64,000 nt of DNA from Parietichytrium sp. I65-24A (taxonomy: Eukaryota; Sar; Bigyra; Thraustochytrida; Thraustochytriidae): contig BLSF01000054.1 of the NCBI GenBank assembly GCA_012862575.1, positions 62,001 to 126,000 on the forward strand. Reading direction: 5' to 3'. This document shows, piece after piece, positions 5,701-55,520 of the stretch (the first letter of the stretch is position 1; each line of letters starts with the position of its first letter). A model generated the notes under the pieces. That model worked only from the letters and a program-made list of their open reading frames with translations, was not told the DNA's origin and did not search any database. The translations under genes and the position numbers were made by a program.

Positions 5701-5795
5701 AGTTCAGCGTGTCCTCTCGCGGCCAACGACACATTCGCACACAAAACCAGCGCAGCCACGACCAGGAGCGCCGCTTGGCCGCCCATCCTTTTCAT
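2787..5795 (-). CDS. Secreted F-type-lectin-like multi-module protein A
   Basis: A 1002-residue protein starting at ATG 5795 with a clear signal peptide (hydrophobic core LLVVAALVLCANVSLA). Residues about 40-400 form a helical, Cys-containing domain that is conserved in the next gene (shared pattern DLEWLG, then CSA, then LPWCGT, then CxCGxC). Residues about 413-545 look like a fucolectin/F5-8 type C domain: SLAIDG, a CSHT motif, NPWW and YNRGDCC match the usual FTP-domain landmarks. The rest holds about three repeats of a beta-sandwich-like module: W-VW, then FGYTFEPQC, then CDDELTFETFSG, then DW, then KLRFTC-x3-GG-x2-AGFIA. Known families with the last pattern are galactose-binding-like. 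The protein ends part-way through a module with a basic tail. It lies in tandem with its paralogue upstream. I infer a sugar-binding extracellular or matrix protein; the ligand is unknown. Confidence 0.85.
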   Translation of the reverse strand: MKRMGGQAALLVVAALVLCANVSLAARGHAELRGELRSELRRSPKAQMVQEGAVVASSEASFEKASEWIESRWGAVGDAADFYRWRMIDSSATWKAFLTSAELVRDAIDTAHSEIGKSAYDIEAQLVTAWLLVRLNVGIDSSSKVDRAAWTVDPGAPIEKLFEALEVGDSIQWAQLLTGFGSLKQYYNSQFASDLEWLGQKILERVSSTTSYDIRTTYDTSKSAYCSAPLVRQAFKSSISAAAKAATCVGTAGNLPWCGTGAGGLVGLRAIHTVASESLPKSLKTIIGLNGIDEYAVRCAAFQTLQALKEIGFCDGQISQLVEVMFASLDTADPFTPVAELALDCYCGNCPLKCTETKEYCDAGTMIPLYTTLGEVSRDVASVASAIVSHPSQLKEEVAWTANYTASSMIKHSMVRISLPKTEYLSLCEVELFDTQGRQIKLFAPSQSSTYESAHASLAIDGAVDANYAHGSCSHTNLEANPWWGASFGSYVDSKPIKVERAVIYNRGDCCSERLNGVQVFINGEELSHVTIRESTVACETATVVSTACFDLLFEAFEGENLVDRVSLSGSVALDTFRRTVPIGHQTRVNIRCLNEYTFAAKVHMCGTTYVTESGVSSNNGYAGAPSNQWYINSGSVGYGDMTYEKPGFYESMTSSPEATNIVWSNDDNNVVNFGFNFSPKCTWAKVAVHCDNEVSMSSYSGQRLVSSSLMLDWHEAANAAVVLGSDAVKLSFNCSNKGGAGGFIGQVEQCGHYSATQMPMQVVDTKAVSTPKEQFFIDAEASNLEKDAMVYNNASDGVWGTMGDMDQSGAKWVWDGQASNTIMFGYTFEPQCSELKVRAHCDDELTFETFSGSALQSSETVSDWRTPLETTIALGSGITKLRFTCVDKGGDHAGFIAFIDKCGTSFVTDGLMPVLLAGAAPPRYKFYFDAATSADPSMFEDHTAGTFQLTHPLEEPWATESTELMAATNAYWVWESGEESMTFDFDLEALPRKRARGKRSE

Positions 5796-6959: not shown

Positions 6960-9900
6960 TTAAAAATCGATAGCAAAGTTGATGTTGTTCCCGATCTGGT
7001 CATCCCAGACCCATTCTCCTCCATGCATGGCCCCAACGTATCCCGTGGTTGAATCGTACTCGGGAGAGTTGGCTGCTGTGTATTGGAGATCGTGTGGATG
7101 AAATCGTGACTGCTCATCGAAACCAGCAGATTCCGCACTTCTTGTGTCAATGTAGAACTGATATCTAGGCACTGTTTCTGTGTCGGGGTCATAAGCCGAC
7201 ACTTTGCTTCTCGTAGTTGTATGACGGCCGCAGTGATCAGCCATCGCGAAGAAGCCTGGAGTTCGTTTCTGGAAGTTGTAGCAACCAAAGGCTACTCGAG
7301 TGACTTTTGACGTATCCACGGTACCGCTGACTATCTTGGTGATGGTTCCTGTGTATTGGCTTGCTATAGTCTCGAGTTGCGTGTCCCCATTAAAATATAT
7401 TGCGCGAAACAGACCATTGCAATACGCAACATACTGCACCTTGGCACAGTCCAAATCATAGGCCAAGTCAAAGTCAATTGTGTTGGTGGTTGCAACCTGG
7501 TTGTCCCATATCCATGAAGCGCCAGTGGACTGCATAGTTTGCATCTTGGAAGCCCATGGGCCCTCCGTCACGGGAGTCACTTTCATAAACTCCGGCTTAA
7601 AGTTTGAGTCGGCAGCCCTGATGTAAAACGTTTCCTTCGGAGGTGTCTGCGTCGAGCCTACCACTGGGATAGTGCCGTCCGTTTTAAATCCCTGCCCGCA
7701 CTTGGCAATGTTTGCAATGAAGCCTGCAGAGCCGCCATTGTTTTTGCATTTGAAACGGAGTTTTGTAATTCCACTATTCAGGGAGACGGTGATGCTCAGT
7801 GGCTTGGACCAATCCGAACTCTGCTTGGAGGCCTTCAACTCTGACCCAGCATACGTCTCCATGGTCAGAACGTCGTCGCAGCTTGCCATGACGTTGAGGC
7901 TTGAACACTGTGCCTCGAAATCGTAGCCAAAAGTGATGGTGTTGCCAACCTGATTGTCCCACAACAGCTCCCCGTTCTGAATGAGAGGTTCATATGCCTT
8001 GCTCGTAGAAGCAAAATCAAGGTACGTCATTTTATCTGCGTGGATGTTGGACGCTGATTTATCGATGAAAAAGTTCCCAATAGGAGTGTTCTCAAAAGAC
8101 GTGTCAACGACTCGAATGGGATAAGCTGTGGACAATCTCCTGCCGCACCGGCGCAGCTCGCTCGCGAAGCCTCCCTTGAGAGCGCTGTTCGTACACTCGA
8201 AGCGCACTCTGGAGAGATCGTGTGTATCAGGGTGACCCCAAATATGAAATCCAGCGCCTGGAGTTGTGCTCGAGACACTAAAATCAACGACACTGCCATT
8301 ATCACTGTCGCTATACGTTTTCGCAAGAAGGTTGCCCTGGCAATGGCCAAAAATAAGTGCAACGTCGCATGATGGTTCAAAGCGGAAGCCAAAGTGCATG
8401 GTGTTAGAGCTCTGAGAGTCCCACACCCATTTTGCTCCATCCATCGCTGGAACATTGTTCCCCCAAGCTCCTTGACCAGCAGGAGTGAAAACCAAGTTGC
8501 CCTGGATGTTGGACTGAGGATTAATGTGCCACCTGTTGGCAGGTGCGTCGGCGGAGTCCACAAGCATAATGTCCGAACTAGTGGAATACTCGGAGCCGCA
8601 GATATCGACCTTTGCAATAAATCCTCCAACTCCTCCGAGATCTTTGCAGATCAGGTTGATCCTGGTCCTGTCGTTGATTTTCACTTTGCGCCTGAATGCT
8701 CGACTCCAGTCGGCGACATGCTGAACGCGATCCACGAGCGTCTTTCCTTCGTAGGCCTCGAAAATCAACTGGTTATCACAGTGGGCAACGACATTTGCGA
8801 CCTCACAACCAACCGTGGAAGTGTAGATATTGACCTTGGAGCTCGGGAGCTCTTGTCCGTTGATGAAAACCTTCGCTCCATCCAACCGACTGGAGCAACA
8901 GTCGCCTCTGTTGTATAGGACAGCTCGTCCGATTTCGATGGCCTTGGAGTCAATCTCCGGAGAGAAATGAGCTTTCCACCAGGGGTTTTTCTCCGATTGT
9001 GTGTGCATGCAATGTCCGTTGTTGTAGTTGGAGTCTAAAAATCCGTCGATAGCGAGCGAAGCAAAAGAGTTCTCGTAAGTGGAGCTTTGCGACGGCGCAA
9101 AGAGCTTGATCAGGCGCCCTTGAACATCATACAGCTCAACTTCGCACAAAGTAAGAAACTCAGTCTTGGCGAGCTTTACCTCGATCGAGGAGTATTTCAG
9201 CACCTCTTCTGATGGCGTAGGATTGGCGAGAGCAGTCTGTGCGGCCTGCAAAAGCCTATAATCGACAACCATTTCACTTGCAATCCGCACGATGTCCTGA
9301 AATGCTGACAACATGTCGCTCCTCAAAACCTCAAAGCCACTGCCCGTCGTGCACGTGTTGGACTGCTCGGCACAGCTAATGGGGCATTCGCCGCAAAAGC
9401 AGCTCGCAGCAAACCCGCATACTGGACTGACCGAATCAGCGCCCGAAGCGGACCATACGAGCTCGCTCATAGAAAAGATTGCATTATCGCAGATGCCTAT
9501 TGACTTGAGAGATTTCAAGACGGCATAACTTGCGCACGCGACTACACCTTTGGAGAGAGAATGTTCAGACATCAGCGATCGGACACTTGGAAGCATGGGG
9601 CTTAATACAACAGCATCCAGAATCTTGAGGCCCGCTGTGGATGTTCCGCACCATGGAAGGAGCCCGAATGTTGCCAAGCAGGTGGCTGTTTTGACAGCAA
9701 CTGAGCAGGAGTACTTGAGTGTCTCAGTAACGATTCGCGCGGAGCAGAACGCGGTTTTGTCGAACTTATAAAAGCTTTCAAGTGTGCACATTGCCTCGTC
9801 ATTCACCCGCTGAAGCATCTGTTTACCGAGCCACTCGAGGTCAGACTCATACCTCTCTGCGTAGTATGCCCCTGGGCTCGAGGAGCCCCAAAGCAACTTG

Positions 9901-10400
9901 ACCCATTTGCCAGGCAGTTCACTTTCAAGATCGGCGAAGAGGTCTCCATTCCTCTCGACGAAAGCCTTGCCGGGAGAGTCGGCCAAAAGCGCCCACGGGT
10001 AGAACATGTCCCTTCCGATTTGTTGAGCAACGTCATTATAAACAATATGACTGCTTTGGCCAGGGAGCACATTCGCGAGGTTCTTGCTGACTTCTTCAAT
10101 TTTCTTCGCACTGTCGCCGGGGGTGAACTGTGCTACGATGTCGGCAAGATACCCCGGCGCCGACGTAGGCCGAGACGTAGATTTCGCTAGAGCATGGGTA
10201 ATCTGGAGCTTCTCCTCGGGGAAGTTTTGCAGCAGCGTCGCAAAGATCTTGCGTTTATCCTCATGGTCGGACCGCGCCCCATACTCCTCGACTGAGCTTC
10301 TCAGTTCGCTCCTCAAGCTCACGCGTTCCCCGTTCGCGCGCACCGCATTCGCGCCGCACACCAGCGCGAGCACCAGCACTCTCCACGCCAGCCTCCCCAT
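6960..10400 (-). CDS. Secreted F-type-lectin-like multi-module protein B
   Basis: I place the start at ATG 10400, giving 1146 residues beginning MGRLAWRVLVLALVCGANA, a good signal peptide whose following RSELRSS matches the paralogue. A longer frame upstream is not needed and would bury the signal. The order of parts is the same as in the neighbour: a Cys-containing N-terminal domain (CSARIVTE, then LPWCGT, then CFCGEC), an F-type-lectin/discoidin-like domain (SLAIDG, CMHT, NPWW, YNRGDCC), then about five copies of the WVWD, FGYDF, CDD-LTMETY, DW, KLRFKC, GG-AGFIA module. One module is divergent (AYCNGLFRAIYFNG). It again stops inside a module, right after the WVWDDQ and FAIDF strands. The two genes are clearly an old tandem duplication that differs in module number. 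A secreted carbohydrate-binding role is inferred. Confidence 0.85.
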   Translation of the reverse strand: MGRLAWRVLVLALVCGANAVRANGERVSLRSELRSSVEEYGARSDHEDKRKIFATLLQNFPEEKLQITHALAKSTSRPTSAPGYLADIVAQFTPGDSAKKIEEVSKNLANVLPGQSSHIVYNDVAQQIGRDMFYPWALLADSPGKAFVERNGDLFADLESELPGKWVKLLWGSSSPGAYYAERYESDLEWLGKQMLQRVNDEAMCTLESFYKFDKTAFCSARIVTETLKYSCSVAVKTATCLATFGLLPWCGTSTAGLKILDAVVLSPMLPSVRSLMSEHSLSKGVVACASYAVLKSLKSIGICDNAIFSMSELVWSASGADSVSPVCGFAASCFCGECPISCAEQSNTCTTGSGFEVLRSDMLSAFQDIVRIASEMVVDYRLLQAAQTALANPTPSEEVLKYSSIEVKLAKTEFLTLCEVELYDVQGRLIKLFAPSQSSTYENSFASLAIDGFLDSNYNNGHCMHTQSEKNPWWKAHFSPEIDSKAIEIGRAVLYNRGDCCSSRLDGAKVFINGQELPSSKVNIYTSTVGCEVANVVAHCDNQLIFEAYEGKTLVDRVQHVADWSRAFRRKVKINDRTRINLICKDLGGVGGFIAKVDICGSEYSTSSDIMLVDSADAPANRWHINPQSNIQGNLVFTPAGQGAWGNNVPAMDGAKWVWDSQSSNTMHFGFRFEPSCDVALIFGHCQGNLLAKTYSDSDNGSVVDFSVSSTTPGAGFHIWGHPDTHDLSRVRFECTNSALKGGFASELRRCGRRLSTAYPIRVVDTSFENTPIGNFFIDKSASNIHADKMTYLDFASTSKAYEPLIQNGELLWDNQVGNTITFGYDFEAQCSSLNVMASCDDVLTMETYAGSELKASKQSSDWSKPLSITVSLNSGITKLRFKCKNNGGSAGFIANIAKCGQGFKTDGTIPVVGSTQTPPKETFYIRAADSNFKPEFMKVTPVTEGPWASKMQTMQSTGASWIWDNQVATTNTIDFDLAYDLDCAKVQYVAYCNGLFRAIYFNGDTQLETIASQYTGTITKIVSGTVDTSKVTRVAFGCYNFQKRTPGFFAMADHCGRHTTTRSKVSAYDPDTETVPRYQFYIDTRSAESAGFDEQSRFHPHDLQYTAANSPEYDSTTGYVGAMHGGEWVWDDQIGNNINFAIDF

Positions 10401-11487
10401 CGTGGTTTCGTAACCTACTTCGCCTGATCTGCCAGCTCGCAACTCACAGTCGGCTCGCGCAAGTCCAGGAGGCCTTCTGAGTTTGGGGACTGCCAAGGTC
10501 CAAAGACTTCAATCTGTTCAATTGAAATCAGCCAAGAGAAGAGCGTCTTGTTTCATCTTGTTTCATCTTGTTTCATCTTGTTTCATCTTGTTTCTCTTCA
10601 CGGTCAATCTTATTCAATACCATCGGATACTGTGCGCCGTACTCACAGTCTATACAAGTGCTGTAAGCTTGCATACTCCTTGATCATTTCTCTCCTTCTC
10701 TTCTTCTATCTTCTTCTCTCCTTTCTCTCTGTCTCTTCTTCTTCTCCTTCTGATGAGAGACAAATGAAATGTGACAAAAACGATTTTGATCAAGATCAAT
10801 CAAGACTCAACTCTGACAGTCCAGAAGGGTTATGGTTGGTAGTGGAGTGGCTATCTGTAGCTTATAGAGGTATTATACCGACGTCTCGGTAATTACGTTA
10901 TTGTCTTTTAGTGATAATGGTAGAATGGCGGGCATGGCGTACGCCTAGTACGGTAGTGGGGATTAGAGATACGCAGCAAAGATCAAACCTTTGGTAAGCT
11001 TATTGTTTGTGTGCTGTACGATAACGCACTTCCTCTCACAATGCCACTCCCATTCTGATCACTCGTTTCACTAATGATTTAATACGCGCATCGCTAATAC
11101 TGTCGAGTCTGGGCTATTCAAGTGAGAGTATCTTCGCTATTAGTGTTAACAATAAGATCCGTCCCGATCACTTCACAGCGCCCGCAGAACGGAGCTCGGA
11201 GCTCGCAGAACAGAAATCGCAAAACAACGCCCGCAAAACAGCCGAATTGGGAGCTTGCACTGCCAAGCTGTGAGATGCGAGCTTGCTTGCTGCATTTAGA
11301 ATGTGAAACGCTCTGCCCCTCTCTTCGGTCTCTGTTTGAAAAAGGGTTGCCAAGCAAGGGTACGTTCGTTCATAATAAAATAAGATGTCTTTTTTTTTTT
11401 TTTTTCCTGAGATTGTTGTTTCCGGGATTCTACCGCGAAGCGAATGTACTGTCTGCGCTGTCAAAGCAAAGTGGTGCAAGGGCGCGT
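10401..11487. other. Spacer, low complexity, no gene seen
   Basis: Contains a TTTCATCTTG decamer repeat (10547-10594), a pyrimidine-rich CTTCT stretch around 10685-10750 and a T16 run near 11390-11405. Nothing here looks coding. Confidence 0.65.
10547..10594. repeat. TTTCATCTTG tandem decamer
   Basis: Four perfect copies of the decamer TTTCATCTTG followed by a partial copy. Confidence 0.95.
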
Positions 11488-19881: not shown

Positions 19882-21948
19882 TTCATAAGCCCTTCAGAGC
19901 CGCACCATCACCATGGATTGCACTTAGCTTGCGCCGCAATTCAAAGCCTAATCACGACAAAAACTACCTCCTTGTCGAGCAACAGCCTCACCTGGACAAG
20001 TTCTTGCTTGACAGTTTGCAACTGTTTTCGCAAGGCCTCAACCTCACTCATCGGCGCAGGCCGCTTCATCTCGTCGGTCTCCTATGGTCTGCTCGCTCAT
20101 CGGCCCTTCCTTTCCCGCGATCATATACGTCTCCATTCCCCACAGATGCTGTCTGTCTACGGCACAGTGCAACTTCTAGTAATGATCTTAAAGCATAACA
20201 TAGCACAAGACATACACCACTGCACACCTAATCGAGTGCTATGTGAATGCTCCGTTTTAGTGGCTTCCCGTAGTCACCTGTAAGAGCTGCAAGTGTCCTA
20301 GCTACCTAGCAATTGTGTGCCGGAGTAGTCAGGACACTTAGTAAGGGTACTATTAAAGATAGCTAGTACAATAGTACCACCCTTTTGTAATCGCTGTCCT
20401 CGCTAGTACCTAAATAAATCTAACTAACACTCCTGCGCCAGTTCTTCCTTTCTGCAGAAACTGTAGAAGATCTGGTGAGATTGGTATTCATTCTTTTTTG
20501 TTTACGTAAGTATGTTATGTTTTTCATTATTTCACCACAAAACTTGACCAAAGCTCAGAATAAGATATCAAATTCCGCTTCTGCGGTTCCGTGGGGTGGG
20601 TGCTCAGGTTCGAGTGCAATGAGACGGGAGTCGCAGAATCTAATCATTGGCTCCCAGCAACGCTAATGGAAGAGCGTGTGCCAACTGCGACTGGTCCGGT
20701 AAGAGAGCGGCTCGTTCGTAATTTTGAGTACTAATATTTTTACACAGTCATTAATCACAAACTGCATTTCACAGAATATCCAAGGTTACAAGAACAGTAC
20801 TATTCGTGTGATATGTAAGACTAAGTTCGTTTCACTTGTCAAGCTCAAGCGCGGCACTTCGCCACTGTAAGGCAGCCATAGCAGAGCCTACCAGATTGTA
20901 GCGCGGGAAACTTGGGACACGTCGCCAAATTGTATGTGTCACGAGCCATCGGTGAAACCCCCGGATTGTACCGCGTCGCTAGGCAAATTCACACACATTA
21001 GTGGATCCCATAGCTCCGCATCGTGCTCCCGGAGTTTCCTGGTGCCTTCCTCTACTTTCATAGAATTTCACTGGGAGAGATGCCCTGTACCCACTTCGTT
21101 AATACCATGCGTGTATAACAGTGCAGTTGAAGGGGACAGGGGGCGCTTCATTTGCCAACCAAAAATGTGTGCTAAAGGCGTTCATAGCCATATCATAGGG
21201 ATCGGATCTCGACACGCTTTGAGATTCTCCGAGGAAGGGCAGTTTCACTTTTCCTTCACAGCCACTTCCATTCAATCATCTCCCCTCACAGCCACGTGCG
21301 CCCCTCACATCGGCTCTGCGTGGAGGGCTACTGACATTTACTTCAAACGGTAGCGTCTCTGGGTCGCTGTCAATCTCTCTCTCTTTCTCACTTTCTCTCT
21401 CAACTCCCTCTCACACACAAATACAAACCAACAATCAAAGAGCGGAAGAGCCGTCCAAATTCCTTTCACAGGTTTCGCCGAGTGGGACAGGCGCGGCACA
21501 TACGCGTCCCGCGGACACTGCAAGCGAGCGCCCGTTTGCCTCACATCCGCACGCGCACATCCGCGCGCACGTCTCCGAGGCTCGCTGCACGCGGGAGGCC
21601 GATCGGCGGCGGTCGAATCGCTCCGCTCGCGCGCATCTCCAAGAACCAGGCCCCACCCTCGCGGGGCAGGAGAACCGCCCAACGCTGACGCGGAGGGGAA
21701 GAACCGGGGGAGGAACCAAGGAACCGAGGAACCGGCGTGTGGGCGTGTGGGCGTGTGGGCGTGTGGGCGTGTGGGCGTGTGGGCGTGTGGGCGCTGGCGC
21801 TGGCGCGGGCGGAAAGGGTTCCGCTGCGCAGCCAACCTCGAAACGGACCGCGCTAAATTCGGTCCTGCACGTCGCCGCGTGGGTCCGTCGCAGCGCGGTA
21901 CTCGCGGTGCTCGCCGTGGGCGGAGAAGCGAGCGAGCGGCGGCGGGAC
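19882..21948. other. Long spacer upstream of the GPCR gene
   Basis: No gene is supported. Both strands around 20900-21350 have short open stretches without a start or a recognisable motif. The final 500 bp become very GC-rich and carry a GTGTGGGC octamer array (21737-21792), probably in the 5' UTR of the receptor gene. Confidence 0.6.
21737..21792. repeat. Octamer minisatellite (GTGTGGGC)x7
   Basis: Seven perfect tandem copies end about 155 bp before the receptor start codon. Because the unit is 8 bp, no frame contains a stop. This creates false open frames on both strands (poly TRPHAHTP on one, GVWACGR on the other). Confidence 0.95.
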
Positions 21949-24900
21949 ATGCGGGTGTGGAATTCGCGCGCGCTGCTGCTGGGTGCGGCGGCGGCGGCGT
22001 GGGCGGGTCCGCGCGCAGCCACGGGGTTGTCCGAGGACTGCGCGTGCCTCGCGCGCGGCAATGTGAGCGTGGCGCTGGTGGGGCTCAGCGCGGACGGCGA
22101 GGGGGTCCGCGGCGCGCTGGAGGCCGGCAAGAGCCTGGGGGTGCGCGTGCGCGGCTTCTTCCCGGAGAACAACGAACTGGTTGTCGCGTGGGGCGGCAAC
22201 GAGACGCTCGCGCTGCAGGAACTCGCCGCGCGCGCCAAGGACTCGGGCGCCGTGGCGCTTGCGGTGTTCGGCGACACCTTGGGGCCCCGCGTTACGCAGG
22301 TGCTGACGGGATTAATAGAGCAAGCAGAAGGAGAAGGAGAAGAGCAAGGGGAAGTAGGAGGGCTGTTCGTTGCGGCGGTGGGGTCCGTGGAACGCGAGGA
22401 CGCGGAGGCCGAGGGGAAGTTGCTAGGTTGGGCGGGCGTGGACGAATACGAGACCGGCGTGGCGGCGGCGGAGCGGCTGTTACAAGAACGCGGGGTGGTG
22501 CAGTCGGCGCTGTGCGTGGTAGTGCGCGCGGACGACTTTGCGCAGAACCAGAGGTGCAGCGGGTTCCTGGACGGGCTCGCCAAGTTCGATTCGAAAGGGT
22601 CGGTTCTCCTGGTGGACGCGGGGAGCTCCAACAGCTTCGTCACCGAGTCCGCTATCAAGAGCGCGCTGGAGGGTGCCGACCACTCGCTCACGTACGTGGT
22701 GGCCGCGCAAACGGGTGCTGTGGCTCGCAGCGCGTACAACGTGCTTGGCCAGCTGGGACGGTCGCAGCAGGGGGTGGTGTGCTTCACAAGCGACTCGGTG
22801 GCAAAGGCCATGCTAGACACTGGCGAGCTGCTCTTCACTGTGGACCACCAGGACTACCTGGCCGGGTACCTCGCGACCGTGCTGCTGGTGCAGAGGGTCA
22901 GCCACGGGTTTGCTTTGGTCAACAGACTGCTCAGCACCGGACCCGTGGTCAGGACCTCGTTCGAATTGGCGTGGGACCCGAAACCGGTGGCGGACAACTT
23001 CCTGCAAGTGTTCACGCACGGCAGACTCTCAGACCTCTTCTGGCAGGAGTTTAAAACGGGCGTGCAGGCCTCCGCGGAGGACCTCGGGCTCGCGCTGAGG
23101 GACTGCACAACCAGCTCCGCTTGCGCGGAGAAAGCCTCGGAAGGGTTTGTCGAGTACCGCGGCGTCGGCACCACGCTTGACCTGCTGGAGATGGTGAATC
23201 AGATACAGGTGGGCATGAGCAAGGTCCCGACACCTGACGGTGCGGTGACGTCCATTCCCAACTGGCAAGTGTTGAACGAGACGATTTACACGTACATCCG
23301 GGAGCCTGGGGTCCCGGCGGTGTCCGTCAATTCGGGCGGCGATCACGCTGAAGAAGCCGGCATGCTCGTACACGTGGGCGCCAATGAGACGTTTGTCGGG
23401 GAGAGCGTCGGATCCCGCTTGGGCGGCGAAGGATTCCTCAAAGTGCTCTGTCTTAACTATGACCAGGGCAACAATGCCCTGGAGGAGCGCTTCACCGGCC
23501 TTCAGGCTGGGATTGAGCCATACGGAGGAGTTGCAGTCGAGGTTCTCATTGACTATGGCGATGTGTCGTCTTTCGTGCAGAGGGCCATCCCCCAACTTGA
23601 AGGAGACTCCGGGTACACGTTTCTGCTGTTTATGGGATTCCCGGCGTCTCTGTCGCTCTATGTCAACGAGATGGCGTCGCGGGGAATATCCATACCCATG
23701 GGCTCGTTCGACCTCATTGCGGGCTACGAGAGCCAAGTGGCAGATGGCCTGCTGCACTTCTCCATCACACAACAACACTACTTCCAGGCGTACCTCCCCG
23801 TGCTCTTACTGACTCTCTACCTCAGCACTGGGCAGAGTTTGACCACCAACTGGGTTTTCACCGGGCCATTCTACGTCACGGAGGAGAACGTGGAGTCCAT
23901 TACGTGCCAGAGCGCGCTCCGATGTTCCGCAGCTGAAGAGTTTCCGGATTCTGCTACTGTTTGTCCCCTCTCCGACGCCGTTGGGGATGGGTGGTGTGAC
24001 GCCGTAAATAACGTGGAGTCTTGCGGTTATGACGGCGGTGATTGTTGTCAAGAGTCTTGTGTGGACAGTGATGTGTTCTCGTGTGCAACCGACCTTTTCG
24101 ATGTCGGACGGAACTCGTTTGACTGCCTCGATCCGAGCACCAACGAAGGACTCATTAGGCTCTGCGAAAAAACGCCGGACGATAGTCGCTGCGAAAGCCT
24201 CCAGCTTCGCGAAAAGTCTCTCTTCCGACTGGGACTCCTCATTCCGATGAACTACGTTGGCGAGGATAGCGAAGCGGCCAGCACGCAGTACAGTACGAGC
24301 GACTGGCAGGCTCTGGCCGCAACAGCACTTGTCGCCGTGCAGCAATTCAACAATAGGAACGGCAGTTTGATACCAGCATTTGGCTCGGATTCTTTGAAGT
24401 CATGCAATAAGAAGATCTCACTCCAAGTGGAGGATACGCAAGGCGAGCTTGCGAGCAGCTTACAAGCCGTGATGCGCCTCTTGACAGAGAACGGCACCGA
24501 TGTGGTGATTGGTTCAGACTCCTCCGAGCCTTCTATCCGCACGGCCCTTTTGAGCAGTGCCTTCAAGGTCCCACAGATAGGGTATGCAGTGACCAGCACC
24601 CGTCTCAACGACCGGAACACCTATCCATACTTTCTGCGTACCATTGTCTCCGACAACTCCAACACTGGCGCGATCTGCGCGTATTGGGCGCAGCTCGGAT
24701 TTCGCTTCGCAGCCATGCTCTTTCCAGAGTCCGAAGAAGGCAACTCGTTCAAAGCCGCTCTCGTGCTCCAGTGTCGATCATTCGACATCACCGTGCTCTC
24801 CTACTCATTTTTCGCGAACCAAATCTCCGAAGCGCGAGCTCTCTTAGAAGATATCCGAGACCTTGGGCTCAATGTCATCTTGTTTTATATCGGGCAAGAC

Positions 24901-26805
24901 AAGGGCGCCTTGGATGTACTCTCAGAAGCTAAAGACGTTGGGGCGCTCAGAGCGGGAACTCAGTGGACCTTCGCGATCCCTGATGCCGTTTTGGAGGTCT
25001 CCGACTCCCTTTCTGATGACCTTAAAGGACTCTTGACCGGTTCAGTTGTAGTCCAGCCAGTAGGCGGTGACGAATCCAACGAGCCTTTTGCAAATCTGCT
25101 CTCCAGCTGGAGCTCCTTGCAGCTCGAAAGCGAGCTGCTTGACCTACTCAGCTCAGACTTTGCATTTTCAAATGAGCTGTTCACAAGCTACTCTCCCACT
25201 GATAGTGAAATTCTCAAGGAAATAGCCGCCTATGTGTTTGACTCCATTGCGCTTACCGGTCTGCTTGTGTGCGCAGTGAACCCGGTAGACCCGATCGACG
25301 AAAGCACTTTCGCCGAGAATTTTTATGCTGCTCAGGCGCAGGTAGACTTTTCCGGTCTCACCGGACGGATTGCTTTGGATGGCTCTGGCAATCGTCTTTC
25401 AGAAACATCACAGATGGAGCTCCACAATATAATCTTCTCCGCAGAAGGACCAGCGGAGCAGCACATTACCCGCGTAACCATGAGCTCCAATATGACGTTC
25501 ACGCTAGATTGCGAGCCATCTTGCGGCCAGGGCCAGCTCTTCAACGGCGGGGTCTCCACAATCCCGTCTGACGTCACGAAGCCGGAGGAAGAGCTGGACG
25601 ATCCGTTCTACATTATCCCGGTCTGCTACGTGATGCTGTTCGTCAATGTGGTGCTCGCGATCGGTTTTCTTGTGTGGATCGCTGTGAACAAGAAGAACCC
25701 TGTGGTCAAAGTCGCCCAAGTACCATTCCTCGTCTTGATTGCCGTCGGGGCTATTGTTTCTTCGCTGTCTATTGTCCCCATCACCTTCACTGACAAGTGG
25801 CCCGTTGGCCCACAGGCAGGGCCGGATGGAGGGAATTTCGTTGCCGATGTTGCCTGTATGTTGGCTCCGTGGCTGTACTGCCTTGGATTTGTCCTCACCT
25901 ATGTACCATTGTTTGTCAAGCTGAAGAGGGTGAAAAAGGCTTTCACCTTTTCCGGGAACAGCATATCGCGATTCAACAATAGACAAAATAGTCAGACTCG
26001 CCTTGACCAACCTCGTGGGCTTACCAGGAGAATGACCACAAGCTGGTTTCCCGGCCACCAGACTTTCCCTGGACGTGGAGGCAGCTTTTCGGAAATGCCA
26101 AAACGAATGTTGATGGCGACGAGCCTTCAGCTGTTCGTTGTGGAAGCTATCATTCTTGCCATCTGGACTGCATTAGACCCCCTAGTCTACGTGCGAACTG
26201 CCTCCGAAACTGACATGTTCGGCAACTCTCTAAAGAGCTCGGGGTCATGCACGAGCGAGACCTTTGGTTGGTATATCGGGGTGCTGGCGTTCATCCACAT
26301 TGGGCTTTTGGTATACGGATCGTGGCTGTGCTACGCCACTAGGTCCATCAATTCCGCCTTCTCGGAGAGCCGGTATGTCACAATTGCCATGGTTTCCTAT
26401 CTCCAGGTCCTTGTGCTTGGTATTGCAGTGATCCTGAACCTCCCGGCAAACGCGAGTTTGAGCATGTTTCTGATGTCGATGGTGGTCTTCCTTAACGACT
26501 TTACCTGTCTCATCGTCATTTTTGTGCCCAAGATCTATTTTGCTCATTGGGGAACGGATTCGGACGGGATCGGGGCGGACATCATCCGTCGTAGGCAGAC
26601 CAAGTTCCGGGCCGAAAAGTCCAACTGCCGGTCTCGGAATGGCACTCCGCCTACCGACAATGACGAGACGACAGACTCTTTCAAAAGGTCTCCGCAACAT
26701 TGTCATTCCCAAGACCCGCTCGTCAAGAATCTCATCAATTTAGGTCCCAACAACACGCCGCAAGCCACGCCGCAGGACTCTCCTTCCGCATTGCGAATGG
26801 TGTAA
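21949..26805 (+). CDS. Class C (GABA-B-like) GPCR with multiple periplasmic-binding-like domains and an LNR
   Basis: ATG 21949 gives 1618 residues. The frame runs further upstream only through GC-rich 5' sequence from GTG codons. A signal peptide (LLLGAAAAAWAGPRAA) is followed by two type I periplasmic-binding-like stretches (about 30-335 and 480-655, for example NYDQGNNALEERFTGL). A Lin-12/Notch repeat follows at about 672-712 (CPLSDAVGDGWCD, ESCGYDGGDCC), then an ANF-receptor-type ligand-binding domain (about 745-1120, for example DVVIGSDSSEPS). Seven transmembrane helices span about 1218-1520. Class C hallmarks are CMLAPWLYCLGFVLTYVPLF in TM3 with KLKRV just after it, and VPKIY at the end of TM7. 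The C-tail is polar. Receptors of this class sense amino acids, GABA or similar small ligands through the Venus-flytrap domain and couple to G proteins. The ligand here is unknown. GC falls steeply from the 5' end to the 3' half. Confidence 0.9.
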   Translation: MRVWNSRALLLGAAAAAWAGPRAATGLSEDCACLARGNVSVALVGLSADGEGVRGALEAGKSLGVRVRGFFPENNELVVAWGGNETLALQELAARAKDSGAVALAVFGDTLGPRVTQVLTGLIEQAEGEGEEQGEVGGLFVAAVGSVEREDAEAEGKLLGWAGVDEYETGVAAAERLLQERGVVQSALCVVVRADDFAQNQRCSGFLDGLAKFDSKGSVLLVDAGSSNSFVTESAIKSALEGADHSLTYVVAAQTGAVARSAYNVLGQLGRSQQGVVCFTSDSVAKAMLDTGELLFTVDHQDYLAGYLATVLLVQRVSHGFALVNRLLSTGPVVRTSFELAWDPKPVADNFLQVFTHGRLSDLFWQEFKTGVQASAEDLGLALRDCTTSSACAEKASEGFVEYRGVGTTLDLLEMVNQIQVGMSKVPTPDGAVTSIPNWQVLNETIYTYIREPGVPAVSVNSGGDHAEEAGMLVHVGANETFVGESVGSRLGGEGFLKVLCLNYDQGNNALEERFTGLQAGIEPYGGVAVEVLIDYGDVSSFVQRAIPQLEGDSGYTFLLFMGFPASLSLYVNEMASRGISIPMGSFDLIAGYESQVADGLLHFSITQQHYFQAYLPVLLLTLYLSTGQSLTTNWVFTGPFYVTEENVESITCQSALRCSAAEEFPDSATVCPLSDAVGDGWCDAVNNVESCGYDGGDCCQESCVDSDVFSCATDLFDVGRNSFDCLDPSTNEGLIRLCEKTPDDSRCESLQLREKSLFRLGLLIPMNYVGEDSEAASTQYSTSDWQALAATALVAVQQFNNRNGSLIPAFGSDSLKSCNKKISLQVEDTQGELASSLQAVMRLLTENGTDVVIGSDSSEPSIRTALLSSAFKVPQIGYAVTSTRLNDRNTYPYFLRTIVSDNSNTGAICAYWAQLGFRFAAMLFPESEEGNSFKAALVLQCRSFDITVLSYSFFANQISEARALLEDIRDLGLNVILFYIGQDKGALDVLSEAKDVGALRAGTQWTFAIPDAVLEVSDSLSDDLKGLLTGSVVVQPVGGDESNEPFANLLSSWSSLQLESELLDLLSSDFAFSNELFTSYSPTDSEILKEIAAYVFDSIALTGLLVCAVNPVDPIDESTFAENFYAAQAQVDFSGLTGRIALDGSGNRLSETSQMELHNIIFSAEGPAEQHITRVTMSSNMTFTLDCEPSCGQGQLFNGGVSTIPSDVTKPEEELDDPFYIIPVCYVMLFVNVVLAIGFLVWIAVNKKNPVVKVAQVPFLVLIAVGAIVSSLSIVPITFTDKWPVGPQAGPDGGNFVADVACMLAPWLYCLGFVLTYVPLFVKLKRVKKAFTFSGNSISRFNNRQNSQTRLDQPRGLTRRMTTSWFPGHQTFPGRGGSFSEMPKRMLMATSLQLFVVEAIILAIWTALDPLVYVRTASETDMFGNSLKSSGSCTSETFGWYIGVLAFIHIGLLVYGSWLCYATRSINSAFSESRYVTIAMVSYLQVLVLGIAVILNLPANASLSMFLMSMVVFLNDFTCLIVIFVPKIYFAHWGTDSDGIGADIIRRRQTKFRAEKSNCRSRNGTPPTDNDETTDSFKRSPQHCHSQDPLVKNLINLGPNNTPQATPQDSPSALRMV

Positions 26806-32597: not shown

Positions 32598-32790
32598 AGC
32601 TTGTGCTGGTGCATGTCGCTTCGGAGCTGTGGGATTGGGATTGGATCATCATTTGAGCGAAGGAGCAACTTTCCCCGACGAGGTATCTAGCGTCAAGTTT
32701 AGATTATTTGCATTATTTGCATCGCTTGCATTCCTCCGCGCGACTGAAGGTGTGGTTTCAAGGCTTGGAAGTGGTTTGAGGTGTCATCGG

Positions 32791-32832
32791 CTTGTCATTG
32801 TCATTGTCATTGTTATCGTTGTCATTGTCATT
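32791..32832. repeat. (TTGTCA)n microsatellite
   Basis: Tandem TTGTCA hexamers with single-base variants, followed by GTTGTC units, about 100 bp before the Kelch-BTB ATG. Confidence 0.85.
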
Positions 32833-32936
32833 GTTGCTGTTGTCGTCGTCGTTCAGGGCTTTGCTTTGCTTTGCTTCGCTTGGGCTGTCCCAATAACGGT
32901 GGAAGCGAGGAGATTTGCACCTCAATTCGGGCGGGA

Positions 32937-35900
32937 ATGTTCGAAGAATCATTGGAAGCAGAAGGCGGCCAGTCAAGCGACATCTGGGGAGCGGACGAAC
33001 CAGTGCAGAGGACTCCAAGCAGATCAGATTTTCAAGAGGGAAGCGAAGAGCACCGCGTCGGAGAGGAGGGCGACGAGGAAGACGAGGAAGATATGGAGGA
33101 TGAAGAGGAGGAGAACGAGGTCAAGCACCCAGACCGGATTCTCTCCGGAAGCGCTTGCTGGGAGCAAGTCAAGGTCACACCAAACAGCACAGAAGGCAAT
33201 CCACCTGGGCAGCGTTCGCTGCACGTGGCAGTGGTGTACCGCCAGAGTTTGTACATATTCGGAGGATACGATGGAAATGGGCGCGTGAACGAGTTCCACA
33301 GGTTCGATTTTGTCAATATGGCGTGGCAATGCCTCGACCCTTCAGTGGTTTCGGGTGATCCGCCAAGCGCTAGGGATCGCCACTCGGGTCTTGTAGTGGG
33401 GGACGGCCTTTTCATCTTTGGCGGGTTTGACGGTTTATGCAGAGTGAACGATCTCCATGTTTTTGACTTCGAGGCGCAGCGCTGGCTTTTAGTTGACTCG
33501 CGAAAGTCCTCGCTTCAAAGGAGCACAGGGGTTCCCCCGAGCGCACGCCATAGCCATTCTGCGGTGGCGTATGGCAAGTCCATGTATATATTTGGCGGTT
33601 ATGACGGAGCGTACAAGAATGACCTTCACTCGTACACTGTCACGGATCCGGCCACGTACGCCGGGGTGTGGCGAAGAATCGAAGCCACAGGCAGCTATCC
33701 ACAGGCACGCTACAGAGCGTCGTGCGTCACTTTTGAAAACAAAATGATCCTCTTTGGTGGACACGATGGGTCCCGCCACCTTGACTGCACGCACATCTTT
33801 GACTTTGAGCTTGAGTCGTGGACGAGGCTCTATTCCCAAGGCGCGCCTCTCCCAAGAGACTCGCACGTTGCGGTAGTGTATGGGAGAGCCATGTTCGTGT
33901 TTGGCGGAAGCAACGGCAACGCTCTCAACGATTTCCACTTACTTACGCTGAAAGGCGGTTACGCTTGGAGCCCTGTCGAAAGTGACGGCTGGTTTCCATG
34001 CAGCCGATTCTGCCATGTCGCGGTGGAATACGACCACAGCATGTACGTGTACGGCGGCTATGATGGCACGCAGCGGCTGAAAGATTTCCATCGCTTCAAG
34101 TTCGCGCCGAGCACTTTTCTGGTGGCGACGAGCACTTTGTTGGACGACTTGAACTCCTTCGTGAAATCCGACATGCTCAGCGACGTCACTTTTCTGGTCC
34201 AAGAGTCGGCCATACCTGCGCACAGGGTCTTTGTCTCGCGGTGCTCGATTTTGCTTGAAGGCGCTGAAAGCGATGTTGACGTTCATTACGACAGTGAGAA
34301 CAAACTCATTGTTAAGCTGGATGATAGTGTCAAACTAAAAACGTTTGAAGCCTTGCTGGGATATCTGTACACTGACAAAGTCGCCTTGGAGTCCGAGCTC
34401 GAAGCCTTGGACACTTTTGCACTTGCAGAAAGGTACAAAGTCGAGCGCTTGAAGCGCATTTGCTTGAATTACGTGGCGTCCAACCTCACCGTCAGAAACG
34501 CTGCCATTGTCTTTCAGGCGGCGGACCGCTACAAGGTAGATGAGCTTCGATCCCGCACCCTGAATTTCATTTTGCAACACTTCGACTCTGTCTCCAAGAC
34601 CGACACATTTGAAGAGATGGGCAGAACCAATGTGGAGCTTGTGTTTGAGGTTCTCAGGAAGCGTGGGGAAGAGGAGAGGCCGAATGAAGCTGACCCGGAG
34701 ATGAGCTTTTCGGTTCCGCCCCCGCCTCCTTCCATGGCCATGACCGAAGAGTTTTCGCAAGATCGCGGTAGGCAATGGCTTCCGGTCACAGTCAAGGAGT
34801 CCCGGAAGGGGATAAGCGTCAGCAAAAGATCGCTTCATGTTGTAGCCGTTTACAAGGATGCGCTGTATCTGTTTGGTGGCTACACCGGCGAGCGTCGAGT
34901 GAACGATTTTTATCGCTTCAGCTTCCTCGACCAGTATTGGTCAGTTGTGGAAACCTCCGTAGCTCAGGATCCTCCACCGTCGCCACGCGACAGGCATACT
35001 GCGGTGGTTGCGTGCGACCAGTTTTGGGTGTTTGGTGGATTCGATGGCAAGATGCGAACCAACAGTTTGCACTCGTACAATTTTATTACGAGGTGTTGGC
35101 ACCAAATTACCGCTGGGCCAAGTACCCCGAGCCCGCGTCACAGCCACTCCGCAGCCGTCGTGGAGAGCTCGATGTATGTCTTTGGAGGCTATGACGGCTC
35201 CTACAAGAACGATTTGGCTCGGTTCGACATTCCGTCAATGTCGTGGTTTCGTCCACAAGTGAACGGGAAACCGCCTTCCGCTCGTTACCGCTCAACCTTG
35301 GTGGCCCACCAAGGCTCACTCTATCTCTTTGCTGGGCATGACGGTTTCAGGCACCTCAATGACGTGCACGTCATGAACTGCGCAACACACACTTGGAGCA
35401 CTCTTCAAACCAGTGGTATGAGTCCTCTAGCACGTGACTCGCACTGCGCCGTCGTGCACGGCAACTCAATGTACGTGTTTGGCGGAAGCAGTGGCAACGC
35501 AAATAACGATTTCTACAAGCTTCGTCTCAAGGAAGGCGGGGCTTGGCAGAAAGTTCCAACTACAGGCATGGTTCCTTCTTCGTAAGTTTGGGCGGCTTTT
35601 CTTTTCCTTTGCTCTTTTGAAGTGTGATTTGTCCTCTCCTGACGCTATTTTGTCCTTTCTACTATTTCTTGTATGTTGTCTTCATTTTTCGCCTTATTCA
35701 TTGCAGACGTTTCTGCCATGCCGCCGCAGTATATAAACGGTACATGTATGTATTTGGTGGATACGACGGATCTCAGAGGCTCAAGGATTTTATTGAGTGG
35801 AGCTTCGGGGAAACTCAAGTCTCTTACATACCGCGCGGAACGCTTGTAAGCGATCTCGTGCTTCTCATAGGTTCGGAGAAGTGCAGTGATGTGACTTTTA

Positions 35901-36355
35901 TAGTGGAAGGACAGCGAATACCTGCACACAAAATCTTGTGCGCAAGATGTCCTTACTTTTCCGCTCTTTTCAAAGCAGGAATGCGTGAATCACGGGCGAC
36001 CGAGTTGGTGTACCCCGATATTCGTTATGAAGTGTTCAAGTCCCTACTGTTGTACCTGTACACGGATCGAATCGAAATCGGTCTCGATCAGTGCATGGAA
36101 CTCTTCGTTTGCGCCGATCGGTTCAACGTGGAAAGGCTTCGCGCGATGTGTGAAAACAAGCTGTTAAGCTCCATTGACATCGAAAACGTTAGCGACTACT
36201 TGTCTGCCTCGGAGTGTATGTCCGCTCAGAGCCTTCACGAGCGCTGCTTAAGTTTCATCATTTTGAACTTTGATGAGGTGTCCAAGACGAGGGGATTCGA
36301 AAACATGATCCGTCAAAATGTAGATCTTCTTATTAAGATATTGAGATCGAGGTAG
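32937..36355 (+). CDS. Kelch-BTB-Kelch-BTB protein (one intron)
   Basis: Exons 32937-35581 and 35707-36355 encode 1097 residues. ATG 32937 is the first in frame; the frame further upstream opens at GTG through microsatellite sequence. After an acidic N-terminus come about six Kelch blades (residues about 90-395, repeated LYIFGGYDG and MYVYGGYDG). A BTB domain follows near 411 (SDVTFLVQESAIPAHRVFVSRCS) with a BACK-like helical stretch, then a Pro-rich linker. A second set of about six Kelch blades (about 630-905) and a second BTB domain (from about 928, CSDVTFIVEGQRIPAHKILCARCP) complete the protein. The two halves are an internal duplication. Related animal LZTR1 has one Kelch set and two BTB-BACK pairs; such proteins usually serve as Cullin-3 adaptors. 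The splice restores the last Kelch blade exactly (VPSS then RFCHAA). AATAAA lies at 36381. Confidence 0.9.
35582..35706 (+). other. Intron (125 bp) of the Kelch-BTB gene
   Basis: GTAAGT donor, pyrimidine-rich end, ATTGCAG acceptor. Removal joins the last Kelch blade of the second set in frame. Confidence 0.9.
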
Positions 36356-45342: not shown

Positions 45343-48300
45343 CTACCTCTTCAGCTTGTCGAGGTTGTTCATTATCTTCCGTCGCAGGTTGGGAATGGTT
45401 TTCGGGCTGTACAAATTCTTAGGAACCTCCACCCGAGAGACCACCGTCTCGTAGGTGGGCCCAAAGTACTCCCGATACTCGGACTCGGACTCCGGGATGA
45501 CGTTGGGCAAGGCACCTTCCAGTTCCAGGACAACGGTGGTCAAGTATGCCCAAAGCCTGGCCATGTTGGCCATGTTAGAACCAATTCCGCCCAACAGCAG
45601 CAAAGGCACCTTGAAGTCTCGAACCACCCGGACGCAATCTCCATATCCTCTACAGGTCAAGTTAAACAAACCGTCGCGCTCGCCTGCGAGCAGTTTCCCA
45701 CCACATTGCATGACGACCACATCGGGATTGAAGACCGTGCGAGCTTTCCCCACGATGGAACGGAACATTGGTCCGAACGCGGCGTCGTCGACACCAGGGT
45801 CCAAAGGCACATTTACAGTGTACGCCTCCCCGTCGTCTGCTCCTGTGTCGGCGACATCTCCCGTACATGGGAACTCTGGATCATCTGGGTTGGGCTTGAT
45901 GTGGAACGAGATGCAGAGAACCCTCGAGGTCGTGTAAAAGGCTTGTTCGACAGCGTCGGTATGCACGCCACTAAGATTAATGTACAGGACTCGCGGAAAG
46001 CGCTGCAAAAGCTCGAGGATTGCGAGCACGGTATCATTCACAAAGCAACCGCTATGTGCCGAACTCGACCGAGCATGGCTCATTCCTCCATACCAGTTGA
46101 TCGCAACATTCACATCTCCGTAGCACAATCGTGCTGCGCAGCCTAAGCTTCCAGTCGTGTACATTCTGCAATAGTCCAGCACTCCGGGAAACACCGCGAA
46201 ACTGGATTTGGATGCGTCCAGGGTAAGATTGAACCTTTGAAAGAGCTCATCAACCTTTGCAGAGACCTCTTTCTCTTCCGGACCCTCTCGGTTCTTTTGC
46301 GCTGCGCCACCGATGCTCCAGGAAAAATTCTTGTTTGCCATACGCTGAGCGGTCGCCAAAAGCTCTAGGTATGCGTCAGAATGAAACTGGCCCAAATCTG
46401 TTCTGGTGGTCAACCTCGGGTGGAGCGGCTCAATGAAGGCTGGGTAATATCCGTAACTACAGATCAAGCTGTGCGCCAACTTGGCGCGAAAAGGCCTAAA
46501 TGGGTGATCCCTCGAGTGGTCAAACACTGAGAGCTCTGGATCGTGATAGTACACCACTTTTATTCCCGGAGGAGGATACAATTCTATCTGCGGGCGACGC
46601 AAAGGTGTCGCCACCTTGACCTCTTCTTCTGGAACAGCTACTTTCTCTTCAAGGCTGGCATCTTGCGGGATCGTGATCTTCGCAGGAGGTTTTTCTTCTT
46701 TCGGGGCCTGCTCCTGCTCCTCCGCGGGTGCATCTGGCTCGACTTTTGTGTCCTCCTCAACCACTTGCGATTCTTCTTGTTCTCCTGCTTTTGTCTCGCC
46801 TTCAAGCCGAGGCTTTTGCGTTGTAATTTCTTCAGAAACCTCATCTCCTTCGTCGTCCCGCTTGCGCTTGGCGCTGCCCTCTGCGCTCTGTTCGCCGTCG
46901 GCTGTTGTATTTGCTTCTACACTCTCTATAGCTTCTTCGGTCTTCGTGGTCTCACTCTCTTTCTTCTCATCCTTGACGTCAATATCCACTTCCATCTCGG
47001 TTGATTGTTTTATTTGCTGCTCATTCTCCGCTTCTCCATCGACTTTTGCGCTACCAAAAGCGTCAACAGCAGGTGAAGAACTCTCCTGAGCTGCCTGGGT
47101 GGTAGAGGTTTCCTCCTCCATCTTCACAGCTTTGTCGCCAGCAGTCGTTCCTTCAGTCTCTGTTTGGGGCACCTCTTCGTCATCTACCCTCTCGGACAGA
47201 GATGCGCCACTCTCTTTCACAACAGCCTCTTCCTTGGCGTCTAAGCCTTCGGAGTTCTCTTTTGCATCAGCCACGGCACCATCTGAAAGGTTGCTTTCAC
47301 TTGGTATGGCTACCTCACCTTGATCTGTGGTCTCCGGTCCTCCGCTCTTTTCATTTGGAGTTTCATCAGCTTCTGAGCTTACGACAACAGGTGTGGCTTC
47401 GTTCACCACACCAGGAAGTCTAACATTTTCGGCGTTGTCAACGTTTGATGGACTTGTCTCCATCATCTCCTCTTCTGCGTCACCTTCTTGAGTTTTTGCA
47501 GCCAAATCGGAGGCGGGCATGGCCTCCGATTTCTGGTGTTGTTCTGCCTCTTCAACTTCCATATCAGCTGCAGCAGCGGCTGGACCTGGTTCTTCTTTGG
47601 CCTCGACTTCCATGTCCAGTTCGCCATCCTTCACATTTTTGTCCAACGGCGCCGCATCGGACTCCACCTTCTCTGACTCTATCCGGGGATCGGCCTCTTT
47701 CGAGTCTGACTTCTCGGCAAGTTCATCATTGACTGCTGTGGGTTCACCGGCCTCTAACTTGCTCTGTTCGACACTCTCACTCTCGTCTGCTCCGCTCTGC
47801 TTGGTGTCTGGAGATGCCTGATTGGAAACAGCCCCCTTGTCACCTCCCGCTTCTTCGAGAACCTCCTTCGACTCTACATTTCCCACGGTGCCGACATTCG
47901 CATTCGCATTCGCATCGCCATCGACCAAAACTTGGGAGTCGCCTTGTGAAGCCATTTTGCCATCCTCAGGTTCAGCGGCACTCTTGCCATCTTCTTCCGG
48001 AGCGGGCTTAACCTCGGCTTCCGGAGCAGCCTTAACCTCAGCTTCCGGAGCGGCCTTGGCCTCATCCTCTGGAGCGACTTTGGCCTCGACTTCTGGAGCG
48101 GCCTTGGACTCGACTTCTGGAATGGCCTTCGCCTCGCCCTCTTCTGGATCGACTTTGGCTACATCTTCTGGGGCCACTTTGGCATCGCTTTCGGACACCA
48201 TAGTAGCATCGCCCTCGGTAGCTATTTTGGCGTCACCTTCAGAAAAAGTATTGGAATCACCTCCTACCCTATTAGCATCGCATTCAACATCCATTTTCTC

Positions 48301-48483
48301 TTCTCCTTCTGGGGCAGTCTTGACTTGTTCTTCAGGCACTGCATCGGCATTAGGAGCGGCAGCGCCGGTAGTCCCGTGCACATCATCGCCGGACGCATTC
48401 ACTCCATCGCTCTCAACCTTGGCCTCCACGACACCACTCAAATCTCCTAGTTCGGAGCTTGACGCTTCCTGTTTCTGGTCCAT
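45343..48483 (-). CDS. Class I HDAC-like pseudoenzyme with long acidic repeat N-terminus
   Basis: 1046 residues from ATG 48483. Residues 1 to about 630 are low-complexity and acidic, with repeated APE-x-EAK-type octamers (about residues 95-165) and Lys/Glu-rich stretches. Residues about 633-1040 align through their length with class I (RPD3/HDAC1-type) deacetylases: FRPFRAKLAHSL, DAVEQAFYTT, LFNLTCRGYGDCV, REYFGP. The catalytic machinery is replaced. HDAC1 H140-H141 is SH here; the DIDIHHGD zinc loop reads NLSGVHTD, so D176 becomes S and H178 becomes V; ligand D264 is K (CGGKLLAG); and transition-state Y303 is S (GGIGSN). All three zinc ligands are therefore missing, and deacetylase activity is not expected. 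The intact length argues for a structural or regulatory role, perhaps as a partner in a corepressor complex (inference). Confidence 0.9.
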   Translation of the reverse strand: MDQKQEASSSELGDLSGVVEAKVESDGVNASGDDVHGTTGAAAPNADAVPEEQVKTAPEGEEKMDVECDANRVGGDSNTFSEGDAKIATEGDATMVSESDAKVAPEDVAKVDPEEGEAKAIPEVESKAAPEVEAKVAPEDEAKAAPEAEVKAAPEAEVKPAPEEDGKSAAEPEDGKMASQGDSQVLVDGDANANANVGTVGNVESKEVLEEAGGDKGAVSNQASPDTKQSGADESESVEQSKLEAGEPTAVNDELAEKSDSKEADPRIESEKVESDAAPLDKNVKDGELDMEVEAKEEPGPAAAAADMEVEEAEQHQKSEAMPASDLAAKTQEGDAEEEMMETSPSNVDNAENVRLPGVVNEATPVVVSSEADETPNEKSGGPETTDQGEVAIPSESNLSDGAVADAKENSEGLDAKEEAVVKESGASLSERVDDEEVPQTETEGTTAGDKAVKMEEETSTTQAAQESSSPAVDAFGSAKVDGEAENEQQIKQSTEMEVDIDVKDEKKESETTKTEEAIESVEANTTADGEQSAEGSAKRKRDDEGDEVSEEITTQKPRLEGETKAGEQEESQVVEEDTKVEPDAPAEEQEQAPKEEKPPAKITIPQDASLEEKVAVPEEEVKVATPLRRPQIELYPPPGIKVVYYHDPELSVFDHSRDHPFRPFRAKLAHSLICSYGYYPAFIEPLHPRLTTRTDLGQFHSDAYLELLATAQRMANKNFSWSIGGAAQKNREGPEEKEVSAKVDELFQRFNLTLDASKSSFAVFPGVLDYCRMYTTGSLGCAARLCYGDVNVAINWYGGMSHARSSSAHSGCFVNDTVLAILELLQRFPRVLYINLSGVHTDAVEQAFYTTSRVLCISFHIKPNPDDPEFPCTGDVADTGADDGEAYTVNVPLDPGVDDAAFGPMFRSIVGKARTVFNPDVVVMQCGGKLLAGERDGLFNLTCRGYGDCVRVVRDFKVPLLLLGGIGSNMANMARLWAYLTTVVLELEGALPNVIPESESEYREYFGPTYETVVSRVEVPKNLYSPKTIPNLRRKIMNNLDKLKR

Positions 48484-53893: not shown

Positions 53894-55520
<1,627 letters not shown>

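Follow-up and report, generated by a model that had tools for sequence, protein, structure and literature searches.

We identified an open reading frame (ORF) that encodes a predicted class I histone deacetylase (HDAC) domain in which all three zinc ligands, the first histidine of the active-site pair and the catalytic tyrosine are replaced. The ORF occupies positions 45343 to 48483 on the minus strand of the window, the 64-kb stretch of DNA that was analyzed, and all coordinates below are positions in that stretch. It opens with ATG, stays in frame throughout and encodes 1046 amino acids (aa), with a long acidic arm fused to the HDAC-like domain. On balance, we think that the product is probably a translated, nuclear class I pseudo-deacetylase that serves as a scaffold or as a histone-binding subunit, a reading based on comparison of sequences and of a predicted structure.

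Architecture and class I membership of the ORF product

We divided the ORF product into two parts. The first, recognized by its composition, is an acidic low-complexity arm of 627 aa (46603 to 48483, minus strand); the second, recognized by alignment with HDAC2, is an HDAC-fold domain of 419 aa (45346 to 46602, minus strand), which was used for alignment and folding. The boundary between them (46602/46603) is our own choice and lies 14 residues ahead of the first residue that aligns with HDAC2. The Pfam profile Hist_deacetyl matches residues 660 to 984 of the protein (E value, 3.4e-47) and is covered from position 1 to position 297 of 298. This agrees with a sequence-only reading of the same DNA, in which the deacetylase fold was described as intact from end to end. 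The two segments quoted in that reading, LFNLTCRGYGDCV and YFGP, are both found in the translation. The putatively dead domain, which is of class I type, is the sole HDAC domain of the 1046-aa protein.

Membership in class I, which had also been claimed from the sequence alone, was borne out by Pfam, phmmer, Foldseek and a phylogenetic tree, all of which agree. Among the best 60 of 113 matches in a phmmer search of the PDB, the scores were 276 bits for HDAC2, 266 for HDAC1, 252 for Rpd3, 251 for HDAC3, and 191 for HDAC8. Identity over the domain is 40% with HDAC2, 38% with both HDAC3 and Rpd3, 36% with Clr6, and 34% with HDAC8. We modeled the domain with AlphaFold2, using as input the domain and 14 of the 16 prokaryotic homologues described below (15 sequences). 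The model has a mean pLDDT of 71.7 and a pTM of 0.78, and its top PDB match by Foldseek is HDAC2 (38% identity; E value, 3.3e-34; TM score, 0.72 for the query and 0.82 for the target). When Foldseek was run against a viral library, it returned five deacetylase-like proteins with 13 to 16% identity. A maximum-likelihood tree was built from 16 sequences (the window protein, 5 references, and 10 of the 16 prokaryotic homologues). In it, the window domain clusters with the five eukaryotic class I references with a support of 99/99; the support values do not place it nearer either to HDAC8 or to the group of HDAC2, HDAC3, Rpd3, and Clr6. There are 70 positions that split this group from HDAC8, and the window domain is RPD3-like at 31 of them, HDAC8-like at 13, and like neither at 26. 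Its end branch (1.29, compared with 0.20 to 0.33 for HDAC2, HDAC3, Rpd3, and Clr6 and 0.93 for HDAC8) stays below the long-branch flag of the tree program. We assign the ORF product to the class I HDAC fold family.

The N-terminal part of the protein had been described as a 630-residue acidic repeat arm. Its acidity is clear: the 627 residues comprise 19% E and 14% A, with 173 D and E residues against 56 K and R residues and a net charge of -117. The repetitive character holds for only part of the arm. Tandem Repeats Finder identified a 24-bp tandem repeat of six copies (47994 to 48136, minus strand), each copy of which encodes eight residues of the type EAKxAPEx, along with a 6-bp run at 47895 to 47915; an overlapping 72-bp row at 48012 to 48159 represents the same stretch as the 24-bp array. 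The rest of the arm is acidic low-complexity sequence in which the same program found no array. Residues 539 to 542 of the arm form a KRKR cluster (46858 to 46869, minus strand), the only one in the arm, which we take to be a candidate nuclear localization signal.

Catalytic residues and coding status

The window domain has S, V, and K in place of the zinc ligands D176, H178, and D264 (numbered as in HDAC1) and S in place of both H140 and Y303, exactly as the sequence-only reading had stated. The residue calls were verified in two alignments, and five further replacements (D174N, G149S, F150G, L271D, and G301I) go beyond that reading. All of these changes lie on the minus strand and are given here with the positions at which the codons start. 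The segment from 46048 to 46080 contains H140S (46080), the retained H141 (46077), G149S (46053), and F150G (46050). It is followed by the segment from 45955 to 45978, with D174N (45978), D176S (45972), H178V (45966), and the retained H179 (45963) and D181 (45957). D264K (45696), the retained R270 (45678), and L271D (45675) fall between 45673 and 45696, and G301I (45585), Y303S (45579), and R306A (45570) fall between 45568 and 45585. Hence, the pocket has gained three serines and one lysine; H141, H179, D181, D99, and F205 are retained.

We compared the domain with 21 references, 5 of them with solved structures and the other 16 prokaryotic homologues, all 16 of which enter the column counts. 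The latter came from a scan of bacterial and archaeal genome contigs, in which no orthologue was found, an absence that is uninformative for eukaryotes. A viral contig collection, which is not meant for eukaryotes, was scanned with the domain by itself as well as with two alignments and yielded no relative. H140, D174, D176, H178, D264, and Y303 are kept in 21 of 21 references; because the prokaryotic homologues were retrieved by patterns over GG[LW]HHAKK and EASGFCY, their conservation at H140, H141, K143, K144, G149, and F150 is partly built in, while D174, D176, H178, D264, and Y303 fall outside the patterns.

At the 37 columns with at least 95% conservation in the 21 references, the window domain has lost 6 of 7 catalytic residues versus 9 of 30 others (Fisher test, P = 0.011) and has retained 22 residues overall. 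Nine of the references, each scored with itself left out, had lost none of the 7 catalytic columns and between 0 and 5 of the others. With only the five eukaryotic references, the losses at invariant columns were 6 of 8 catalytic versus 30 of 93 other (P = 0.023), and overall divergence was considerable, with 36 of the 101 invariant columns changed. The difference was not significant for a broader active-site list of 25 residues that we drew up ourselves, 20 of which do not vary among the five references (10 of 20 lost versus 26 of 81; P = 0.19). These comparisons suggest that the losses center on the catalytic residues themselves, within a domain that has drifted elsewhere too. With the zinc ligands, H140, and Y303 all replaced, the domain should be unable to carry out the canonical HDAC reaction. 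Their replacement, at positions kept by every reference, supports the earlier claim that the domain is catalytically dead, and homology combined with the loss of catalytic residues marks the protein as a putative pseudoenzyme.

Codon use was compared with that of sequences recoded synonymously according to local base composition; the neutral base makeup was taken from three stretches that we treated as noncoding and the codon model from 8 ORFs of the window, all of our own choosing. The domain fitted the model with a z score of 6.4 and scored highest in its own frame among the six; at 0.625, its GC3 falls within the range of the 8 ORFs behind the model (0.61 to 0.81). The arm lacks the codon bias of its neighbors (z score, 0.8; GC3, 0.48), which is a point against our main reading, and its own frame is outscored by two others, both of which contain stops.

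The codons at the six catalytic changes are AGC, AAT, AGT, GTG, AAA, and TCT. To reach them from the standard codons takes a minimum of 11 base substitutions, and the frame is unbroken. Sequencing error is unlikely for this reason, and we rejected it as the source of the replacements. An artefact of any kind, whether of sequencing, assembly, or annotation and including the possibility that arm and domain are separate genes, strikes us as extremely improbable: the codon bias does differ between arm and domain, but the two share one open frame, which in the arm runs for 627 codons while the other five frames contain 22, 45, 12, 4, and 17 stops. A young or slowly decaying pseudogene that is still open by chance would fit the end branch, longer than that of any class I reference in the tree, as well as the many changed invariant residues and the unbiased codons of the arm. 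However, 1046 codons are open, the codon bias of the domain resembles that of its neighbors, and 22 of 37 near-universal columns are kept, with the losses concentrated at catalytic columns, and we consider this explanation distinctly improbable. As to the marks of a pseudogene, the frame is not broken, and coding bias is kept in the domain and absent in the arm. Decay is unlikely because the domain has kept its codon bias and its AlphaFold2 model resembles HDAC2; together with the open frame, this upholds the earlier statement that the gene has not simply decayed.

Binding surfaces and proposed role

Binding of acyl-lysine or of inositol phosphate had been suggested as a function that could persist without catalysis. 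Three tunnel residues have changed (G149S, F150G, and L271D), which makes an acyl-lysine reader unlikely, although F205 and D99 remain. We take HDAC1 K31, R270, R306, and G27 to mark the inositol-phosphate pocket. The window domain has kept R270 and has the changes K31R, R306A (also A in HDAC8), and G27D. Since these phosphate-pocket residues have changed, inositol phosphate is unlikely to act as a glue, and its binding is disfavored as well. The contact with Sin3 also bears on docking. Clr6 Lys141 bonds with the Sin3 HID (PMC10115800). By numbering offset, Lys141 would correspond to HDAC1 K144. This position is S in the window domain, and a Sin3-type dock would therefore have to differ from the known one.

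The protein might be a dominant-negative competitor that limits deacetylation by binding the proteins with which an active class I HDAC associates. Dead HDAC2 is dominant-negative in mice, but heterozygous dead HDAC1 is without a major phenotype (both reported in PMC4719423), and the window domain differs at the phosphate pocket and at K144, where known scaffolds make contact; we regard such a role as unlikely. Alternatively, the pocket might have been neofunctionalized, with a new ligand or a new chemistry at a polar site made up of S140, H141, S176, K264, and S303. The gain of three serines and a lysine would suit this idea, as would the persistence of H141, H179, D181, D99, and F205. However, no homologue with the same residue set appeared in the viral and prokaryotic scans, and the tunnel lining is altered (F150G and L271D), such that we rate a new pocket function as quite unlikely.

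The nuclear pseudo-deacetylase that we favor could work as follows. Its domain would be unable to hold zinc or to deacetylate, and K264, located about where the metal sat, may supply the positive charge of zinc and thereby allow the fold to stand metal-free. The KRKR cluster would direct nuclear import. The ligands of the acidic arm may be histones or further basic proteins of chromatin. The HDAC fold may dock onto another member of a complex that acts in corepression or handles histones, where it would take the structural place of an active class I enzyme. The scaffold or decoy role proposed in the sequence-only reading is possible and comes close to this one.

Published work offers parallels for such a subunit. 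Inactive mouse HDAC1 and HDAC2 still enter corepressor complexes (PMC4719423), and Sin3-type complexes of yeast and fission yeast contain one HDAC copy with a blocked site (PMC10115800, PMC10224958, PMC13183676). Why one copy is blocked is called unclear in two of these papers (PMC10224958, PMC13183676). The blocked copy has also been described as latent and as unlocked by nucleosomes, which argues against a fixed structural role there (PMC13183676). A more specific version of our reading, which we put forward as doubtful, is that the gene is an ancient algal, perhaps red-algal, class I paralogue that became the fixed noncatalytic partner in a two-HDAC chromatin complex. It would then be a hard-wired counterpart of the blocked copy of yeast Rpd3L, with an acidic histone-binding arm of its own.

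Comparison with known deacetylases and other features of the window

HDAC1, HDAC2, Rpd3, and Clr6 have the whole fold in common with the window domain and are its best PDB matches by sequence and fold; they differ from the window protein in that the latter replaces the zinc ligands, H140, D174, and Y303 and adds the 627-residue acidic arm. In class IIa HDACs the tyrosine is lost and the zinc site retained, whereas in the window domain the zinc site itself is gone. The class IIa enzymes are regarded as pseudoenzymes and have low basal enzymatic activity (PMC4719423). The C-terminal pseudo-deacetylase domain of HDAC10 is likewise an inactive HDAC fold (PMC11532494), but in HDAC10 it comes second, after an active domain that deacetylates polyamines, whereas that of the window protein is of class I and stands alone. 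In Rpd3L/SIN3L, the blocked second copy is likewise of class I, and its site is closed when the complex is in the apo state (PMC10115800, PMC10224958, PMC13183676). It is the same protein as the active copy, is blocked by a loop of Rxt2, and can be unlocked by nucleosomes (PMC13183676). Arabidopsis HDA10 and HDA17 are noncatalytic and related to a class I HDAC, but they are truncated and have been called pseudogenes without a catalytic HDAC domain (PMC7586748). Trypanosoma DAC2, considered as a possible inactive precedent, was set aside: the available part of the source gives it as class I and cytoplasmic and has nothing on inactivity (PMC2941730).

As described in the portions of these papers at hand, none of the inactive HDACs (the C-terminal domain of HDAC10, class IIa, and HDA10/HDA17) is a class I domain with its metal site replaced. 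In the literature searched, which consisted mostly of papers available without subscription, we found no class I HDAC in which every zinc ligand is replaced. A class I HDAC domain with its whole metal site replaced would show that a structural role is enough to preserve the fold, and it would be a natural setting in which to ask why an inactive copy is present in some HDAC complexes.

Pyropia yezoensis has been described as having two HDACs of class I, 538 and 1134 aa long, which belong to two red-algal clusters; this split is said to date to the red-algal ancestor, and Porphyridium was among the species searched (PMC10227436). The transcript of the 1134-aa gene rises more than 2.7-fold at 50% water loss, and the main text of that paper does not mention the active site or zinc (PMC10227436). 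The 1134-aa protein (PyHDAC2, Py03239) is of class I and resembles the window protein in its large size, a comparison made by description only, and its gene may be a candidate relative of the window gene. According to a survey of oomycetes, the class I HDACs there consist of the core domain only (PMC5112689).

Elsewhere, the window contains long open ORFs and has a GC content of about 53%; no Rfam match reached the gathering score, and ARAGORN found no tRNA in it. The ORFs, the base composition, and the adenylosuccinate lyase fragment described below led us to guess that the source might be an alga such as Porphyridium. Two adjoining large ORFs on the minus strand (2787 to 5795 and 6960 to 10496) match the galactose-binding family PF22633 at similar positions, one match above and one below the Pfam cutoff, and are possibly tandem paralogues. 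At 32781 to 36355 (plus strand), a kelch-BTB-kelch ORF is followed by a second ORF, kelch-BTB-BACK, in another frame. An adenylosuccinate lyase fragment at 54510 to 55520 (minus strand) has best PDB matches of 411 bits, presumably to bacterial enzymes, and its frame stops shortly past GSSTM, perhaps at an intron. Lastly, a 1688-aa ORF at 21739 to 26805 (plus strand) encodes two ligand-binding modules, with best Pfam matches to Peripla_BP_4 (residues 224 to 386) and ANF_receptor (residues 891 to 1221), followed by the seven-helix domain of a class C G protein-coupled receptor.
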